A program made the position numbers and the translations under genes. From Candidatus Gastranaerophilales bacterium (GTDB taxonomy: Bacteria; Cyanobacteriota; Vampirovibrionia; Gastranaerophilales; Gastranaerophilaceae): a DNA stretch of 64,000 nucleotides. Position 1 is the first letter of the stretch. The number at the start of each line of letters is the position of its first letter. Shown here one piece after another: positions 9,216-53,440 of the stretch. A model generated the notes under the pieces. That model worked only from the letters and a program-made list of their open reading frames with translations. It was not told where the DNA came from and searched no databases. The stretch lies in contig CALUPW010000001.1 in assembly GCA_944322785.1 (NCBI GenBank), positions 62,001 through 126,000 of the forward strand, read 5' to 3'.

Positions 9216-9873
9216 TGCCATAATTTTTGATATAGATGGAACTTTATTAGATGCATCAGAGGGAATAATAAAATCAATAATTTATACAATGAATAAATAT
9301 AATTTAATGCTTCCAGATAATTATTCAATTACCGAATTTGTAGGTCCATCAATTCAGGATTCATGTAAAAGAATATTTAATATGAATGAAGTTGATGCTC
9401 AATCTTTTGCGAACTGTTTTAGAAACAAATATTCACAAGGCGATGTTTTTTATGCACAGCCTTATGACAATATTTATAAGCTTCTGGAAAATCTGAAGGA
9501 AAAAAATATTTTGTTAGGTGTTGCAACTTATAAACGAGAAGATAATGCAAGAGATTTGATGAAACACTTCGGTTTTGACAAATATTTCGACTCAATCTGC
9601 GGGGCTGATAACGAAAATAAATTGACAAAAACCGATATTCTTAAAAAATGTTTAAAAGAATTGTCCTGTGAAAATCAATCTGCTGTTTTGATAGGCGACA
9701 GCTGCCATGACGGCAGGGCTGCAAATGAAGCGGGAATTGATTTTATCGGTGTTACTTACGGTTTCGGATTTAAAACAAAAGATGAGATTAAAGAATTCAA
9801 TCCTGTACTGTGTGCAGAAAATATTAATGATATTGTCGAATTTTTTGACAATAAAAATTCTCTAATACCTTAA
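9208..9873 (+). CDS. HAD-family phosphatase (phosphoglycolate phosphatase-like)
   Basis: A class IA haloacid-dehalogenase hydrolase of about 220 residues. The motifs are visible in order: FDIDGTLLD (nucleophile and acid/base aspartates), GVATYKRED for motif II, a lysine in KLTKTDILKK, and IGDSCHDGRAANEAG for motif IV. The GTG start has GGAGG nine bases upstream and overlaps the aldolase stop by 8 bases. Its place at the end of the operon suggests it removes the phosphate from a sugar-acid phosphate, the task done by KdsC-type enzymes in the standard pathway. Similarity alone would also allow a general sugar phosphatase. Confidence 0.88.
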   Translation: MYSAIIFDIDGTLLDASEGIIKSIIYTMNKYNLMLPDNYSITEFVGPSIQDSCKRIFNMNEVDAQSFANCFRNKYSQGDVFYAQPYDNIYKLLENLKEKNILLGVATYKREDNARDLMKHFGFDKYFDSICGADNENKLTKTDILKKCLKELSCENQSAVLIGDSCHDGRAANEAGIDFIGVTYGFGFKTKDEIKEFNPVLCAENINDIVEFFDNKNSLIP

Positions 9874-10779
9874 AGGAATTTTCGACCTGTTGATTGTTTT
9901 TTTTTCATATCCGAAATTGGAAAGCATCCGACAGGTACTTGTATAAAAAATATTTTCATCCAGTGTCGGTCCGATATTTATTGAACTTACAGTGCGTTTT
10001 AAAAATTTGTATTCTATATAAGGAATAAAAAGACCGTTTTTTTCAAATATTTTTGTCTGTTTATATGAATTCGGACTGAAATTGCTTATAAAAATTATTC
10101 TGTACTCTTTTTCATCTTTGAAATGAGGATTTTTAAAGAATAAACTGATAATACTCAGTATATCAATAAGTTCAAACAAAATATCCTGTTGTTTTTCAAT
10201 ATTTTTCTGTGTGTTTTTGGCAGCCGTCAGTTTTTCAAACTGTTTGTTCCATTTTTCAAAAATCAGTTTTAAAATAGTAATCTGCGATTCACGATTGTAA
10301 ATTATGTTGCCGTAAACAGAATGAAATCCCTGTTTTTCCATATCGGCAATCAAATCTTTTTTGCAAAATCCTATATTGTAACCGGTATAGGTCTGTCCTT
10401 TTGAATAGTTGTTCCAGAGAGTTAAATTGTCGCTGTCTGTTGAAAATGAAATTGTATAATATTCGTATTTATTTAAAAAATTGTCGTTGCCGTCAACAAT
10501 ATTTTTGTATTTTTTATAAAAATGTTCTTTTATTTTTGAAAACAACTTTGTATTAAGCTGCGGCATTTCATCAACAAGTTTTACGATAAGTTTGTAGGAA
10601 TAGGTTACTTCTTCTTTATCATTAAGATAAAGTGCATTGGAAAATCTTATTGTGCCTGACTCCAGAATGCTCAAAAGTTTTTCGGGTTTTGTATAATGGT
10701 AAAGGTTGCTGTTTGAACCGTCATCAAGTATTTTTTTTACCTTTGGAATTTTTTTCAACAAGCCGTCATAATCAATCAT
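9862..10779 (-). CDS. DUF2971 domain-containing protein
   Basis: A 305-residue protein of unknown function with the DUF2971 pattern: NLYHYTKPEKLLSILESGTI near residue 25, RFSNALYLNDKEEVTY just after, LTLWNNYSKG in the middle and EKEYRIIF toward the end. Proteins with this domain are scattered in accessory regions. The resemblance of the N-terminal YHYT segment to ADP-ribosyl-transferase-like folds is suggestive but not established. It converges with the polysaccharide operon, the two stops overlapping by 12 bases, and has its own promoter region above 10,780. No clear Shine-Dalgarno is visible. Confidence 0.75.
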   Translation of the reverse strand: MIDYDGLLKKIPKVKKILDDGSNSNLYHYTKPEKLLSILESGTIRFSNALYLNDKEEVTYSYKLIVKLVDEMPQLNTKLFSKIKEHFYKKYKNIVDGNDNFLNKYEYYTISFSTDSDNLTLWNNYSKGQTYTGYNIGFCKKDLIADMEKQGFHSVYGNIIYNRESQITILKLIFEKWNKQFEKLTAAKNTQKNIEKQQDILFELIDILSIISLFFKNPHFKDEKEYRIIFISNFSPNSYKQTKIFEKNGLFIPYIEYKFLKRTVSSINIGPTLDENIFYTSTCRMLSNFGYEKKTINRSKIPLRY

Positions 10780-10883
10780 CTTTCAAAACTCCGCCAAAAA
10801 ATATTTGTAAACCTGTATTCCGTAAAACATTTTTATAATTATATTATAACATATTTTTGAAAAAATAATTCCGATAAAAATAT

Positions 10884-10954
10884 AAACCCGTTATTTTGTT
10901 TCAATTTGTCATTCTGAACTTGATTCAGAATCTAATTGATAAAATAACGGGTTT
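10884..10954 (-). terminator. pgi terminator with a nested palindrome in its loop
   Basis: A perfect 14-base inverted repeat (AAACCCGTTATTTT at 10884-10897; AAAATAACGGGTTT at 10941-10954) lies downstream of pgi and between two minus-strand genes. The 43-base loop contains a second perfect hairpin, ATTCTGAA/TTCAGAAT at 10911-10931. The outer arm carries U-rich tails on both sides, so it can terminate in either direction. Confidence 0.7.
10909..10933. repeat. Short dispersed palindrome (GTCA-hairpin family)
   Basis: GTC followed by ATTCTGAA, a five-base loop CTTGA, TTCAGAAT and CT. Several palindromes of the same plan (near 32,928, 33,069, 33,117, 37,282 and in other pilin loci) keep the GTCA start and TCT end while both arms change together. 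This copy sits in the loop of the pgi terminator. Confidence 0.75.
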
Positions 10955-11001: not shown

Positions 11002-12312
11002 TTATTTAGAAATTCTTCCCGGAACAACAACTCCGCCTTTTAAATTCTTTTTATAGAATTCTACGTGCGGCTGCAATACGCTGTCAAGAACTTCAGGAAA
11101 ATCAATCCCTTTTGTGATTTTTTCAACGATTTCCTGATAAACAGTTGCATAAGCTCTCAACTGCGTCATTGCACCCGCAGCTTCGGGAGTCAATCCCATA
11201 CCTTCTGTTTCAACTTTTTCCGTAAAGAATGCGCCGCTTACTTCATACGATTTGCAAAGCGCATCAATATAGCTTTCTGCATTTTCTCTGCATTCACCAT
11301 GGTCGTTCGGAACAGTAAGTGCAAATACAAGTTTGTTTGCAGGGTTAAAGTGTGCTTCTGCGCTGTGGTGCATTGCATCAGGAACTTTTGCAACCTGTTT
11401 TAAAGTATCTTTTACGGATTCATTCTGCATTTGTGCATGCCAGTAAACCGTGTTTTCAAAAATTGCACCCATATATTGATGAACAGAAGCTTCAATTCCT
11501 TTCAATTTTGCATCAGCCCAGAAAATGCCTTCTTTTAATGCTGTGTTGTTTTCCAAATCGGCAGTCAGAGAAATTTTTGAAATTTCTTGAGCAGCTTGAA
11601 GCATTTTAATCATATTTTCTTTTTTCATGCCTGCATAAGCCAGAGCAAAAAGCGCATGATCATCAAATGCTGAAAATCTTCCGCCGACATCATCATGAAT
11701 ATACAAATCGCCGAGCCAGCCGTTTTCGTTTGAAGTTCTTCTCAATTCGCTTTTTTCTTTGTTTGCATCCGTTACGGCAATAAAATGTTTTGCCGCAAGT
11801 TTTTCGGCTTCAGCCTGAGAATTGCCTTGAGATTTGTATTCGTCAATCAACATCTGTTGTATTCTTAAAAATCCGTCTTTTGTTTCAAAAGTTGAACCTG
11901 ATTTTGAAGCAATCATGTAGTTTGAGCTTGTCACTTTGTTGCCTGTCCTGTACAAAAATCTTGCAAAACTTGCAGAGTCAACATCTGAATAGAATGCGAT
12001 CTTGTCACCGCAAACATTTAAGCCGTTAATACTTAACATATGTTCAACAGTATGTTTTGAGCCGCCGATTCCCATAACGCTCAATCTTTCGCATCCGGTT
12101 TGCGCTTTTAATTTTTCAGCAAGTGAATAAATTCCATCCACACGTTTGATTTGTTCCTGCGGTAAATTTACCCAGTTTAAAAATTGGCCTTTTTGATTTG
12201 CTCTTTTTGCAAATTCATTTACAAATTTTGATACATTGTTCTCATATTTGGAAAAATCAAAGCCGTAAAAGTTGCTTGATATTCCTGATTTTGACATACA
12301 TGCTTGAGTCAT
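11002..12312 (-). CDS. pgi: Glucose-6-phosphate isomerase
   Basis: Interconverts glucose-6-phosphate and fructose-6-phosphate in glycolysis and gluconeogenesis. It has the two SIS phosphosugar folds of the family: VMGIGGSKHTVEHML near residue 80 and IASKSGSTFETKDGFLRI near residue 135. GGRFSAFDDHALFALA and HSAEAHFNPANKLVF follow. At 436 residues it is the short bacterial/thermophile type rather than the ~550-residue enterobacterial form. AAGGAGAG precedes the ATG. It is a single-gene unit ended by the nested terminator described at 10,884. Confidence 0.93.
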   Translation of the reverse strand: MTQACMSKSGISSNFYGFDFSKYENNVSKFVNEFAKRANQKGQFLNWVNLPQEQIKRVDGIYSLAEKLKAQTGCERLSVMGIGGSKHTVEHMLSINGLNVCGDKIAFYSDVDSASFARFLYRTGNKVTSSNYMIASKSGSTFETKDGFLRIQQMLIDEYKSQGNSQAEAEKLAAKHFIAVTDANKEKSELRRTSNENGWLGDLYIHDDVGGRFSAFDDHALFALAYAGMKKENMIKMLQAAQEISKISLTADLENNTALKEGIFWADAKLKGIEASVHQYMGAIFENTVYWHAQMQNESVKDTLKQVAKVPDAMHHSAEAHFNPANKLVFALTVPNDHGECRENAESYIDALCKSYEVSGAFFTEKVETEGMGLTPEAAGAMTQLRAYATVYQEIVEKITKGIDFPEVLDSVLQPHVEFYKKNLKGGVVVPGRISK

Positions 12313-32847: not shown

Positions 32848-34096
32848 AACAGGCTCCTGTTGTGATTTAGACTTATGTCATAATCTCAAAATGACATGTC
32901 ATAGCTCTTTTGACGAAAAAATAGAGTGTCACCCTGAACTTGATTCAGGGTCTATTAAGATAGGAAAAGATTCCGGCTCGGGAGCCGGAATGACGGGTAT
33001 AGAGTCAAACATCCTTCGCCCCGCAATCCGGAGTGACGAAGGCAGCCGGATGTCACGCACTCCGTCCCGTCACTCTGACGAAAGTCAGAGTCTATCAATG
33101 CCGGTTAATTCAATATGTCATTCTGAACTTGTTTCAGAATCTCTAAATAAAGAAATAGATTCCGGCTCGGGGGCCGGAATGACGAAACCGTTACCTGTGT
33201 ATTTGCCATGTCATTCAGAGCTGGCTGCAAAATCCGTTGAGACAGGGTCGAAACGTGATTTTATGCCCCTACCTGGTGACTCAGAATCTATCAATGCTGA
33301 TAGAAACAACCTACGCCGCATAGACCGGACTGACCAATCAAGCCGCAATGCAGCCTTTACACTTGCAGAAGTCCTGATAACCCTCGGCATAATCGGAATA
33401 GTCGCCGCAATAACTCTGCCGTCACTGATTGGCAGATGGCAGGAAAAAGTTCGTCAGGCACAATTCAAAAAAGCCTTCAATATAATTAATGTAGCCACTC
33501 AAAAAACTACTGCGGATCTTGGCTATGTTCCCGGATGTTATTACTGGGCTAAAGGTGATAGCCCTTATCCTGCTCTGGAGTGCGAAAGACAGGAGGACGG
33601 CAATTGTATTTACAAATATCCTGATGGTGATACACCTTCGGATTATCACGGCCCTAATGTTGATTGTAAGGCGTTTTATGATGCTTTTGAAAAGAATTTA
33701 AACATCATCCAGCGCTGTGAGCATGCGGAAGAAGACGGCTGTACAGTGCATTATAAAGGTTCGGATACAATTTTAAAAGAAAGTGATGACTCTCTTACGG
33801 AGGAAGAAATAAACGCTGCAACAACCGGAGACCCTGCAAAACGTGAGGAAAATTTTAACAAACTAAAAGCTATTGTTTTGATTGACGGTATAACAATATT
33901 AGATTATCGCAACTACCATCCTTTTGTTGATATAAACGGCAAAAAAGGCCCGAACAAATGGGGATATGACCTGTTCAGGTTCGTACGGCGAGGTTCATCT
34001 AAAAAAGGAATTTTTATTGATACGGATGTAGGTCAAACTGTTGATAAAGGCGGGAAAACAGCAGCAGAAATGTATGAGCAGTCATTTTTGCATTGA
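32816..34096 (+). CDS. Type IV pilin-like protein behind a repeat-encoded N-terminal region (locus 1)
   Basis: The frame is open from the codon after a TGA at 32813 to 34096. Its last ~246 residues are a pilin-type protein. The class III signal AAFTLAEVLITLGIIG begins at residue 179 (33350), with Phe +1 and Glu +5 followed by a hydrophobic helix and a Cys-containing globular part (YVPGCYYWAKG, NIIQRCEHAEEDGCTVHY). The preceding ~178 codons are repeat sequence. TTG 32816 has no ribosome site, so the true start is unknown. ATG 33263 would leave a 31-residue leader. Alternatively, translation from ATG 32794 could shift frame at the G run. dapB follows after 87 bases. Confidence 0.65.
   Translation: MKFRGGGATRKTGSCCDLDLCHNLKMTCHSSFDEKIECHPELDSGSIKIGKDSGSGAGMTGIESNILRPAIRSDEGSRMSRTPSRHSDESQSLSMPVNSICHSELVSESLNKEIDSGSGAGMTKPLPVYLPCHSELAAKSVETGSKRDFMPLPGDSESINADRNNLRRIDRTDQSSRNAAFTLAEVLITLGIIGIVAAITLPSLIGRWQEKVRQAQFKKAFNIINVATQKTTADLGYVPGCYYWAKGDSPYPALECERQEDGNCIYKYPDGDTPSDYHGPNVDCKAFYDAFEKNLNIIQRCEHAEEDGCTVHYKGSDTILKESDDSLTEEEINAATTGDPAKREENFNKLKAIVLIDGITILDYRNYHPFVDINGKKGPNKWGYDLFRFVRRGSSKKGIFIDTDVGQTVDKGGKTAAEMYEQSFLH
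32826..33348. repeat. Composite repeat block of poly-G pilin locus 1
   Basis: The block begins with 12 G and CAACCCGTAAAACAGGCTCC, shared by all four loci. It then strings together palindromes of the plan GTCA-arm-loop-arm-TCT: arms ACCCTGAA/TTCAGGGT (32931-32951), ACTCTGAC/GTCAGAGT (33072-33091), ATTCTGAA/TTCAGAAT (33120-33140). Inverted versions ending CCGGAATGACG occur at 32,990 and 33,180. The last ~140 bases (33207-33348) are almost identical to 47998-48138. Different loci contain different mixtures of these modules. Confidence 0.8.
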
Positions 34097-47571: not shown

Positions 47572-48871
47572 AACAGGCTCCTGTTGTGATTTAGACTTAT
47601 GTCATTCTTCAGCCAAAGACAATTTAAGTCCAAAGCCTCTTAAAAAGACATGTCTTAATTCTTTTGACGAAAAAATAGAGTGTCACCCTGAACTTGATTC
47701 AGGGTCTATTACTGATAACAGACTCCGGCTCGGAGGCCGGAGTGACGAAGGCAGCCGGATGCCACGCACCCCATTCGGTCACTCTGACAGAAGTCAGAGT
47801 CTATCAATGCCGGTTAATTCATTATGGCACTTTTGGTGGCAAAAGTGCCTCAAAACCATCCGCCACGCTGCGTTCACTAATAATCTGCACGGCTCAACCC
47901 GAAAGCCGGCAAACTCGCTAATGCTCAGACAAAGCCGGCTTCTGTCGTATGTTTCGCCAGCAATTATTGTTCACTCCGCTATTGCGGCAAAATCATCATG
48001 TCATTCTGAGCTGGCTGCAAAATCCGTTGAGACAGGGTCAAAACGTGATTTTATGCCCCTACCTGGTGACTCAGAATCTATCAATGCTGATAGAAACAAC
48101 CTACGCCGCATAGACCGGACTGACCAATCAAGCCGCAAAGCCGCCTTCACCATGGCAGAAGTTTTAATAACCCTCGGCATAATCGGAATAGTCGCTGCAA
48201 TGACACTGCCGACATTGATACAGCGAAAACAGGAAAAAGTAACCGTAACCCGCCTTAAAAAAGCGTATTCAATACTATCGCAAACATACGACAGAATGGT
48301 TTACGAACTCGGTTCAGAGCCGAGGGACTGGGGTATGGGCGGTATGTATGAAGAAGAAACTCATATAATTCTTGCCAACAAATTTTTGCCATATCTGAAT
48401 GTCATCCAAAATTGTATAGGAAAAGATAGAGATTTTGTTGCAAAACACTGTATTGATAATGAAAAATATGCAAATCCGAAAAATTATGCAAGTGTACGTC
48501 TTATAGACGGAATGACATTAATATTCAGAAACTGGACATCGACTTGTAATTACAACTTCGGGAATGAAAAACATCTTCAAAATGTTTGCGGTTCATTAAT
48601 AGTAGACATAAACGGTCCCGGCTCGCCAAATTTAAATGGAAATGATATCTTTGTATTTTATCTGACAAATTACGGAATATATCCTGTTGGAACGCAGTTC
48701 GATACAGCTATACCCTTTAACAAATATTGTGACAAAGATACAGAATGGGGTAAGATTGTAGGCAGTTTCAATAACGGAGCTGGCTGTACCGCATGGGTAT
48801 TGTACAACGAAAATCAGGAATACCTCAGATGTTCTGATTTGGACTGGAACGGTAAAAAGAAATGCCGCTAA
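47540..48871 (+). CDS. Type IV pilin-like protein behind a repeat-encoded region (locus 3)
   Basis: The open frame runs 443 codons. The pilin signal AAFTMAEVLITLGIIG begins at residue 201 (48140), followed by AAMTLPTLIQRKQEK and a domain with Cys pairs (VIQNCIGKDRDFVAKHCIDN, CNYNFGNEKHLQNVCG). The upstream ~200 codons are repeat modules. TTG 47540 has no ribosome site; ATG 48053 would give a 31-residue leader. A frame change at the G run would join it to ATG 47518. It ends four bases from the convergent XerC/D gene. Confidence 0.65.
   Translation: MKFRGGGATRKTGSCCDLDLCHSSAKDNLSPKPLKKTCLNSFDEKIECHPELDSGSITDNRLRLGGRSDEGSRMPRTPFGHSDRSQSLSMPVNSLWHFWWQKCLKTIRHAAFTNNLHGSTRKPANSLMLRQSRLLSYVSPAIIVHSAIAAKSSCHSELAAKSVETGSKRDFMPLPGDSESINADRNNLRRIDRTDQSSRKAAFTMAEVLITLGIIGIVAAMTLPTLIQRKQEKVTVTRLKKAYSILSQTYDRMVYELGSEPRDWGMGGMYEEETHIILANKFLPYLNVIQNCIGKDRDFVAKHCIDNEKYANPKNYASVRLIDGMTLIFRNWTSTCNYNFGNEKHLQNVCGSLIVDINGPGSPNLNGNDIFVFYLTNYGIYPVGTQFDTAIPFNKYCDKDTEWGKIVGSFNNGAGCTAWVLYNENQEYLRCSDLDWNGKKKCR
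47550..48138. repeat. Composite repeat block of poly-G pilin locus 3
   Basis: Poly-G and the CAACCCGTAAAACAGGCTCC start are followed by the CAATTTAAGTCCAAAGCC module (shared with loci 2 and 4), a palindrome with arms ACCCTGAA/TTCAGGGT, an inverted CCGGCTCGGAGGCCGGAGTGAC unit, an ACTCTGAC/GTCAGAGT palindrome and a locus-specific ~160 bases. The last module (47998-48138) is shared almost base-for-base with locus 1. Confidence 0.78.
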
Positions 48872-52802: not shown

Positions 52803-53440
52803 AACAGGCTCCTGCTGCGATTTAACAATTAGTCATTCTTCAGCCAAGGACAATTTAAGTCCAAAGCCTCTCAAAAATACATGTCTTGAAGAATTTTACG
52901 AAAAAATGAAACGTCATTCCGGACCTGATCCGGAATCTATCAATGCAGATAAAAACAGACTCCGGCTCAGAGGCCGGAGTGACGAAGGCGGTAAAATCAT
53001 ACCTTCTTCTTACCGTCACCCTGAACTTGATTCAGGGTCTATTAAGATAGGAAAAGATTCCGGCTCGGGGGCCGGAATGACGAAACCGTTACCTGTGTAT
53101 TTGCCATGTCATTCAGAGCTGGCTGCAAAATCCGTTGAGACAGGGTCGAAACGAGATTTTATGCCCCTACCTTGTGACTCAGAAACAATTAATGAGCAGA
53201 AAACTTTTGTCATGCTGAATTTATTTCATCATCCCAACAAGATTCTGAATCAAGTTCAGAATGACAATGCGGACAAAAGTTTTGTGTGGTCAACAATCAA
53301 ACAGAACATCCTCCGCCCCGCAATCCGGAGTGACGAAGGCAGCCGGATGCCACGCACCACATCCCGTCACTCTGACGGAAGTCAGAGTCTATTAATGCCG
53401 ATTAATTTAATCCGGTACTTATGGCCGCAAAAGTCCCGCA
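52781..53440. repeat. Composite repeat block of poly-G pilin locus 4
   Basis: The longest block. Poly-G and the shared start are followed by the CAATTTAAGTCCAAAGCC module, a palindrome with arms ATTCCGGA/TCCGGAAT, inverted CCGG units, ACCCTGAA/TTCAGGGT, the module seen at 33,207 and 47,998 but cut short at about 53,184, an ATTCTGAA/TTCAGAAT-type pair and ACTCTGAC/GTCAGAGT. The order differs from the other loci. Confidence 0.78.

Follow-up and report, generated by a model that had tools for sequence, protein, structure and literature searches.

CGTC-type REP palindromes in the loops of terminator-like hairpins: a composite hairpin downstream of pgi in a Gastranaerophilales genome and similar hairpins in related genera

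Introduction

How does a dispersed palindrome come to lie in the loop of a hairpin that may terminate transcription, and does the hairpin itself have any part in its arrival? The question is raised by a hairpin between pgi and the next gene in a 64,000-nt stretch of the genome of a Candidatus Gastranaerophilales bacterium (hereafter the window). The initial annotation of this stretch held that the palindrome had been inserted into the loop of the pgi terminator, and it saw in this a possible choice of target by hairpin structure.

The palindrome recalls the CGTC-tagged REP superfamily defined by Di Nocera, De Gregorio & Rocco (2013; PMC3733652), whose main text reports no dedicated transposase for these repeats and leaves their mode of movement open. 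In this study, we describe the composite hairpin, compare its locus with those of relatives, and survey REPs within stems in the same genus and in other genera. The window genome comprises 1.95 Mb in 18 contigs and is 99.75% complete; all of the genomes compared are drafts, and many carry MAG titles.

Results

The composite hairpin downstream of pgi

On the minus strand, the hairpin is preceded by a pgi-like glucose-6-phosphate isomerase gene (11002-12312), whose best NCBIfam matches all fall below the curated cut-off, and followed by a co-directional gene (9862-10779) without an NCBIfam match. Between them, two perfectly complementary 14-nt arms, AAACCCGTTATTTT (10884-10897) and AAAATAACGGGTTT (10941-10954), enclose 43 nt that contain a member of the palindrome family, so that the structure reported by the initial annotation is borne out in full. 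In the predicted fold, a weaker second pairing of 6 bp, TCAATT (10901-10906) with AATTGA (10934-10939), extends the outer stem nearly to the palindrome. The 81-nt sequence folds into one long hairpin of -29.2 kcal/mol on either strand (z = -9.0 for the strand of pgi, -7.6 for its complement), and none of 200 shuffles equals it. The enclosing stem scores 34; a score of 24 is reached by 10 of 11,200 shuffled flanks (single-base shuffles). In an exact search of the window genome, the 14-mer of the stem occurs only at the two arms, and two exact single matches are present in another genome, G012.

The stem and the fold agree with those of an intrinsic terminator. The U-tract of the pgi strand, TTTATATTTTT, is imperfect, and a simple terminator scan did not call the hairpin (0 found) because it admits only loops of 3-8 nt. 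We describe the hairpin as a putative pgi terminator. An Rfam scan of the 64-kb window returned nothing at gathering scores.

The palindrome in the loop

We compared the palindrome (10908-10934, plus strand) with the REP family definition given in section 6 of PMC3733652. It consists of the tag (T)GTC (10908-10910), a stem arm ATTCTGAA (10911-10918), the loop CTTGA (10919-10923), a second stem arm TTCAGAAT (10924-10931), and the tail CTA (10932-10934); its core, ATTCTGAACTTGATTCAGAAT at 10911-10931, is thus preceded by GTC and followed by CTA within the loop of the pgi hairpin. The tag reads TGTC at 10907-10910, a form that the definition allows, and it is unpaired and present at one end; in most of the copies listed, CG or TG precedes TC. 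The stem of 8 bp falls within the defined 8-9 bp and has A and T in its first two positions (other tagged palindromes in the window begin with AC), and the loop of 5 nt falls within the defined 4-5 nt. The tail is CTA here and CTA, CTT, CTC or CTG in other arrays of the window, whereas the published consensus is mostly, although not always, CCA. The published family occurs predominantly as HH dimers; the pgi copy is a monomer, dimers dominate the loci of same-genus relatives, and mosaics dominate the window genome. Membership of the GTAG-REP/RAYT group does not apply, given the GTC tag and a window genome without a match to PF01797. With the exception of the CTA tail, the palindrome fits the published CGTC-tagged REP superfamily, which it resembles in its TGTC tag, its 8-bp stem starting with AT, its 5-nt loop and its short tail, and also in its dispersal near gene ends, the occurrence of dimers and the lack of a dedicated transposase (PMC3733652, as far as its definition of the family goes). 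The host group differs, as does the tail.

Two further copies of ATTCTGAACTTGATTCAGAAT lie in the window, at 33120 (plus strand, one mismatch) and at 53242 (minus strand, exact), against a shuffle mean of 0 (n = 100). In the whole genome, 39 copies were found at no more than two mismatches (control, 0), and 86 matches to a wider degenerate pattern at no more than three mismatches (reversed-pattern control, 1), the weakest of which may be chance. Most copies belong to mosaic arrays of tagged palindromes with differing arms and alternating orientation. Such arrays occupy 32928-33183, 47682-47800 and 52913-53388 of the window, where the arms ATTCTGAA, ACCCTGAA, ATTCCGGA, ACTCCGGC and ACTCTGAC alternate in orientation, and they resemble BIMEs or the mosaic elements of Neisseria.

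No Y1 transposase (PF01797) was detected in the window genome by a search that was positive in 5 of 14 control genomes, and the absence of an associated transposase gene in the CGTC-REP definition accordingly holds as far as PF01797 goes. The domain was found in 6 of 12 genomes of the family and is absent from REP-rich G007 and G131 as well as from two genomes with REP-bearing terminators, G291 and G282. At eight Y1 loci of other genomes (L409-L416, 2.1-3.4 kb each), our finder detected no tagged palindrome.

The pgi and tpiA loci in relatives

Homologs of pgi are near full length in 11 of the 13 other genomes of the genus; in G008 the gene is a contig-edge fragment, and G005 has only a distant paralog. 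A plasmid search with pgi gave distant matches only (<60% identity). In the ten same-genus relatives with a readable downstream region, no REP (at most four mismatches) occurs in the 250 nt after pgi. The pgi loop is consequently lineage-specific, and the possibility that all relatives share the same loop, which the initial annotation named as a refutation, is excluded. None of the ten carries both arms of the pgi stem; the distant relative L058 matches one arm with three mismatches.

The pgi tree groups the window genome with L159 (G006). On the minus strand at 10859-10877, alignment with L159 reveals a relic of the right arm of the pgi terminator of this sister species, TTATCGGAATTATTTTTTC, adjoining a promoter-like region before the next gene; the relic and the promoter-like DNA match the L159 right arm and the DNA that follows it, whereas the left arm is missing. 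As the window genome retains just this one arm of the sister-species terminator beside the new hairpin, the whole hairpin appears to have replaced the old one. Insertion of the REP into the loop of the ancestral pgi terminator at this locus was rejected, because a single arm of that terminator, the right one, is left and the new stem bears no relation to it. We likewise rejected a homology of the pgi stem with the ACACCGTTTTG-type terminators of G011, G004 and G009, which show partial arm similarity, because the tree places the window genome with G006 and the flank is of the G006 type.

The window genome has a second such case downstream of tpiA (L004:3039; gene identified by TIGR00419 above cut-off), where a REP occupies the loop of a hairpin that resembles a terminator. 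In 12 relatives, the 250 nt examined at tpiA contain neither a REP nor a matching stem arm. By this comparison, the REP hairpins at pgi and tpiA are both lineage-specific. As no relative has the same pair of stem arms at either locus, insertion into an existing terminator is unproven there. At pgi, the initial annotation is supported in part: the loop is lineage-specific, but none of the relatives with a readable pgi region offers an empty site with the same stem.

Downstream regions of pgi (260 nt each) were scanned at 75 of the 80 closest-relative loci, and two contain a REP, L202 and L205. In L205, the REP adjoins a hairpin after pgi. In L202, from another Gastranaerophilales species, pgi is followed by a REP dimer within a 19-bp stem (2870-2990); this hairpin directly adjoins a right arm that belongs to the pgi terminator of its relatives and is still intact, while the matching left arm is missing.

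REPs in strong stems within the genus

A uniform rule was applied to the window and 46 fetched stretches of the same genome: an outer stem score of at least 24, with arms starting no more than 14 nt from the REP. Two of 102 copies satisfied it, those at pgi and tpiA, both with T-tracts, whereas the shuffle rate of 10/11,200 predicts about 0.09. The search having been prompted by the pgi copy, the tpiA copy is the sole independent case. In seven same-genus relatives (60 loci), none of 102 copies lies in a strong stem starting within 14 nt. These counts, 2/102 and 0/102, indicate that target choice by structure is not general.

An earlier survey of the window genome with wider offsets had placed 5 of 86 copies in stems at p<=0.01, three of which were left out as mosaic copies with one shared flank. 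With wider offsets in the same-genus relatives, strong outer stems surround REP dimers and mosaic copies, outside the 14-nt rule. The REPs of these relatives are mostly dimers, many of them within longer inverted repeats (e.g., AAGCCATTTTGTC...GACAAAATGGCTT) that look like parts of one element. The dimers at L087-L146 lie inside longer inverted repeats of the AAGCCATTTTGTC, CGCCCCATTTTGTC and AATCGGCTTTGTC types, which likely form a family of miniature elements with species-specific outer arms.

REP hairpins in other genera

A pattern of an A-run, a REP and a T-run matched in 16 of 288 genomes of the family (reversed control, 0), and in several matches the hairpin is clearly of terminator type and its loop consists of the REP alone. 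An example from G131 (genus g11) reads AAAATGTTCTGC-TTTT-REP-TCAAT-GCAGAACATTTTTT. In G249 (genus g8), scoring was possible for 51 of 52 listed copies; 31 of these are monomers, of which six have outer stems at p<=0.01 against shuffles and 25 do not. One of the six, a REP with a 17-bp outer stem at L269:1021, lies inside an open reading frame of 325 aa. Wider matching placed 8 of 76 copies in strong stems (shuffle rate, 5/7,600). Two of these eight pass a strict T-tract rule, but a stem that merges with its own T-run, as in L291, escapes this rule.

Of the intergenic DNA in two samples, 0.46-0.65% lies in predicted terminator loops, so that 0.14-0.2 monomers would be expected in such loops in G249, against six of 31 lodged in hairpins, not all of which are terminators. 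The excess persists when the loop share is tripled (P about 4e-6 for 6/31 and about 9e-4 for 4/31), but it is inflated because G249 was picked for its high pattern score. We rejected an extension of this excess to all genomes, as G249 was selected for its matches and the sample from the window's genus shows none. In G085, 20 stretches around 22 copies (13 monomers) yielded stems at p<=0.01 for none of the 13 monomers and for one dimer; the hairpin copies found in this genome are those at the fabG terminator and at site B, described below, plus L398, which was fetched by resemblance.

Altogether, 33 sites with a REP in a hairpin were recorded in g8, with one case from a third genus, and flank comparison reduces them to 20 loci. 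The REP occurs in both directions relative to the T-tract. At 28 of the 33 sites, the distance from the REP centre to the end of an open frame of 60 codons or more is no greater than 100 nt, and at 19 of the 33 such ends lie on both sides within 200 nt; both counts were made with no control for spurious frames. Most of the further g8 loci were fetched for their resemblance to the first ones (18 of the 21 REPs in them have strong stems, and 13 have T-tracts), and the 33 sites and 20 loci are for that reason a catalogue and not a rate.

Several g8 hairpins of the GAGGCTTTT type (L389, L394, L395, L402, L403, L329-L332) seem to be larger dispersed repeats of which stem and REP are both part: the GAGGCTTTT hairpin with its REP loop is followed by a TATATTTTTTGTTGGGTTTCACCC-like stretch, with GTTGGG downstream, and the orientation of the REP varies between copies.

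Empty, filled and reversed terminators

Two orthologous positions show the states of a terminator with and without a REP. At the terminator after fabG (identified by TIGR01830 above cut-off), a REP is present in 7 of 30 orthologous loci, six detected by pattern and one in G110 (L334), whose copy is one base shorter. G249, G291 and G085 carry the REP in one orientation within a GAGGCTTT stem, and in G282 and G110 it is reversed within the same stem type. The CGAGAATT stem holds the REP in G301, whereas in G303 and G299 it closes an ordinary short loop and no REP is present; G290 carries its REP in another stem.

Site B follows an alcohol-dehydrogenase-like gene (matches below cut-off). Four of 29 readable loci carry the REP, in the plus orientation in G249, G085 and G110 and in the minus orientation in G291, while G282 is empty, with a similar stem, GCGGTAATT, and a 5-nt loop; at many of the other site B loci, the downstream context is not the same. 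Among the REP hairpins there is also a paired stem change, T-A in G249 against C-G in G085. In the gene trees, filled loci neighbor empty ones; support at decisive nodes is low, at 0.16 for G301 with G303-G299 and 0.39 at site B for G249 with G085, and the G282-G249-G085 group has 0.97.

The two checks suggested by the initial annotation had divided outcomes. REP-free relatives with similar stems exist at fabG and site B in g8, and none was found at pgi or tpiA. A survey of other copies did reveal REPs in hairpin loops at tpiA and at the g8 loci, although 100 of the 102 copies of the window genome lie outside strong stems; REPs in hairpins recur in g8 and are rare in the window's own genus.

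Discussion

We consider that REP monomers repeatedly come to lie in the loops of terminators, invert there and are probably lost again, and that the pgi palindrome is one such monomer in a lineage-specific hairpin; we give this reading a probability of roughly 0.6. What can be read directly from the sequences is the existence of composite hairpins, their recurrence at many loci, the occurrence of similar-stem terminators with and without a REP, and the presence of both REP orientations at a single terminator with the outer arms fixed. A plausible course of events may be outlined as follows. A CGTC-REP, as a non-autonomous dispersed repeat, would have lodged in the loop of an intrinsic-terminator-like hairpin between pgi and the next gene. 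It may have entered as single-stranded DNA or as a nascent-strand hairpin, either through transposition in trans or through template switching of the polymerase at the stem; the hairpin structure would permit both entry and flipping by way of single-stranded or nascent DNA during replication. In the predicted structure, the REP makes a smaller hairpin at the tip of an outer stem that it does not prevent from forming, so that termination should persist. Once in the loop, the REP could invert across the stem and would probably be lost at times. We infer both that termination is retained and that the same course of events took place at pgi.

The competing account with the greatest claim overlaps with the reading that we prefer. 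REPs may insert anywhere, with no structural targeting, and the copies in terminator loops may survive because termination is kept. The 100 of 102 window-genome copies outside such stems favor this account, as do the 25 of 31 G249 monomers without a stem at p<=0.01. Against it, the G249 excess survives a tripled loop share, although that genome was selected and not all six hairpins are terminators. We regard tolerance by itself as a possible but somewhat doubtful explanation; selective tolerance of loop insertions nonetheless explains the data almost as well as structure-guided targeting does.

The stem and the REP may instead move, or be copied, as one unit, a mobile terminator that replaces the old one. 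The new pgi hairpin beside a relic right arm whose left partner is gone agrees with such a replacement, as does the REP-dimer hairpin of L202 directly before an intact right arm, and stems of the GAGGCTTTT and GCGGGAATTTT types recur with REPs at several g8 loci. Since the GAGGCTTTT hairpins resemble larger dispersed units, copying of whole hairpins probably also occurs. As a general explanation, however, it is unlikely: the 14-mer of the pgi stem recurs exactly nowhere else in its own genome (two exact single matches lie in G012), the stems at pgi and tpiA differ from each other, and orthologous terminators of similar stem are found both empty and REP-filled.

A further account reverses the order of events, the outer stem having formed around an existing REP through template switching that was primed by the REP hairpin and copied one flank onto the other. 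Such fold-back copying would suit stems that run almost continuously into the REP, the relatives without the stem at pgi and tpiA, and the REP dimers of own-genus relatives that also lie within long outer palindromes. The REP-free orthologous terminators with similar stems in g8 are at odds with it, and we consider it quite improbable. Finally, chance overlap of repeat and hairpin would suit the low count in the window genome (2/102, with one independent case), but it is highly improbable in view of the roughly 0.09 copies expected and of the up to 20 other loci, a few of them weak, at which such hairpins recur in other genera.

If monomers do enter and flip within loops, as we favor, a more specific route may be envisaged, in which hairpins direct the copying of CGTC-REPs at replication forks and thereby their spread, no dedicated transposase being needed, with terminator hairpins as landing sites and with exchange, flipping and loss in the loop. 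We offer this route as a speculation and consider it unlikely.

The basic idea of REPs inside longer palindromes is not new, as it was reported in 2013 for GTAG-23 in T. roseum, for CGTC-1 dimers in H. neapolitanus, and for GTAG-15 dimers in A. variabilis, with hundreds of copies of the target palindrome in the T. roseum genome (PMC3733652). As in our cases, the REP units there form the middle of a longer palindrome. The two sets differ in that one outer-palindrome consensus was given per species, whereas the stems described here are locus-specific, several are terminators, and empty orthologous sites exist. We found no description of monomers in terminator loops, empty sites or inversions within loops in that paper, whose main text does not contain the word "terminator". 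The Neisseria element dRS3 belongs to CGTC-1, and most elements in Neisseria occur in large clusters, interspersed with repeats of other kinds (PMC3733652). These intergenic clusters resemble the mosaic arrays of the window genome, but the stem sequence differs, and we found no description there of dRS3 in terminator loops.

Inversion in a loop has a parallel in plastid genomes, in which small inversions occur in hairpin loops, such that the loop flips between related species and the stem stays (PMC6824564). The cases reported there concern plastids and short loops, whereas the flipped loop in our study is a dispersed REP. Among the matches listed from the open-licence PMC literature, judged by titles and the beginnings of abstracts, no description of REPs in terminator loops was found. 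The terminator context, the locus-specific stems, the empty orthologous sites, the inversion and the host group thus look like new additions.

These observations suggest that terminator loops are a refuge in which repeats do little harm. The empty, filled and reversed orthologous terminators provide before-and-after pairs for the way in which CGTC-REPs move. If structure guides their entry, the hairpins would mark a hairpin-targeted route of dispersal that needs no dedicated transposase, and, should hairpin-directed copying prove true, terminator loops would be a reservoir for CGTC-REPs.
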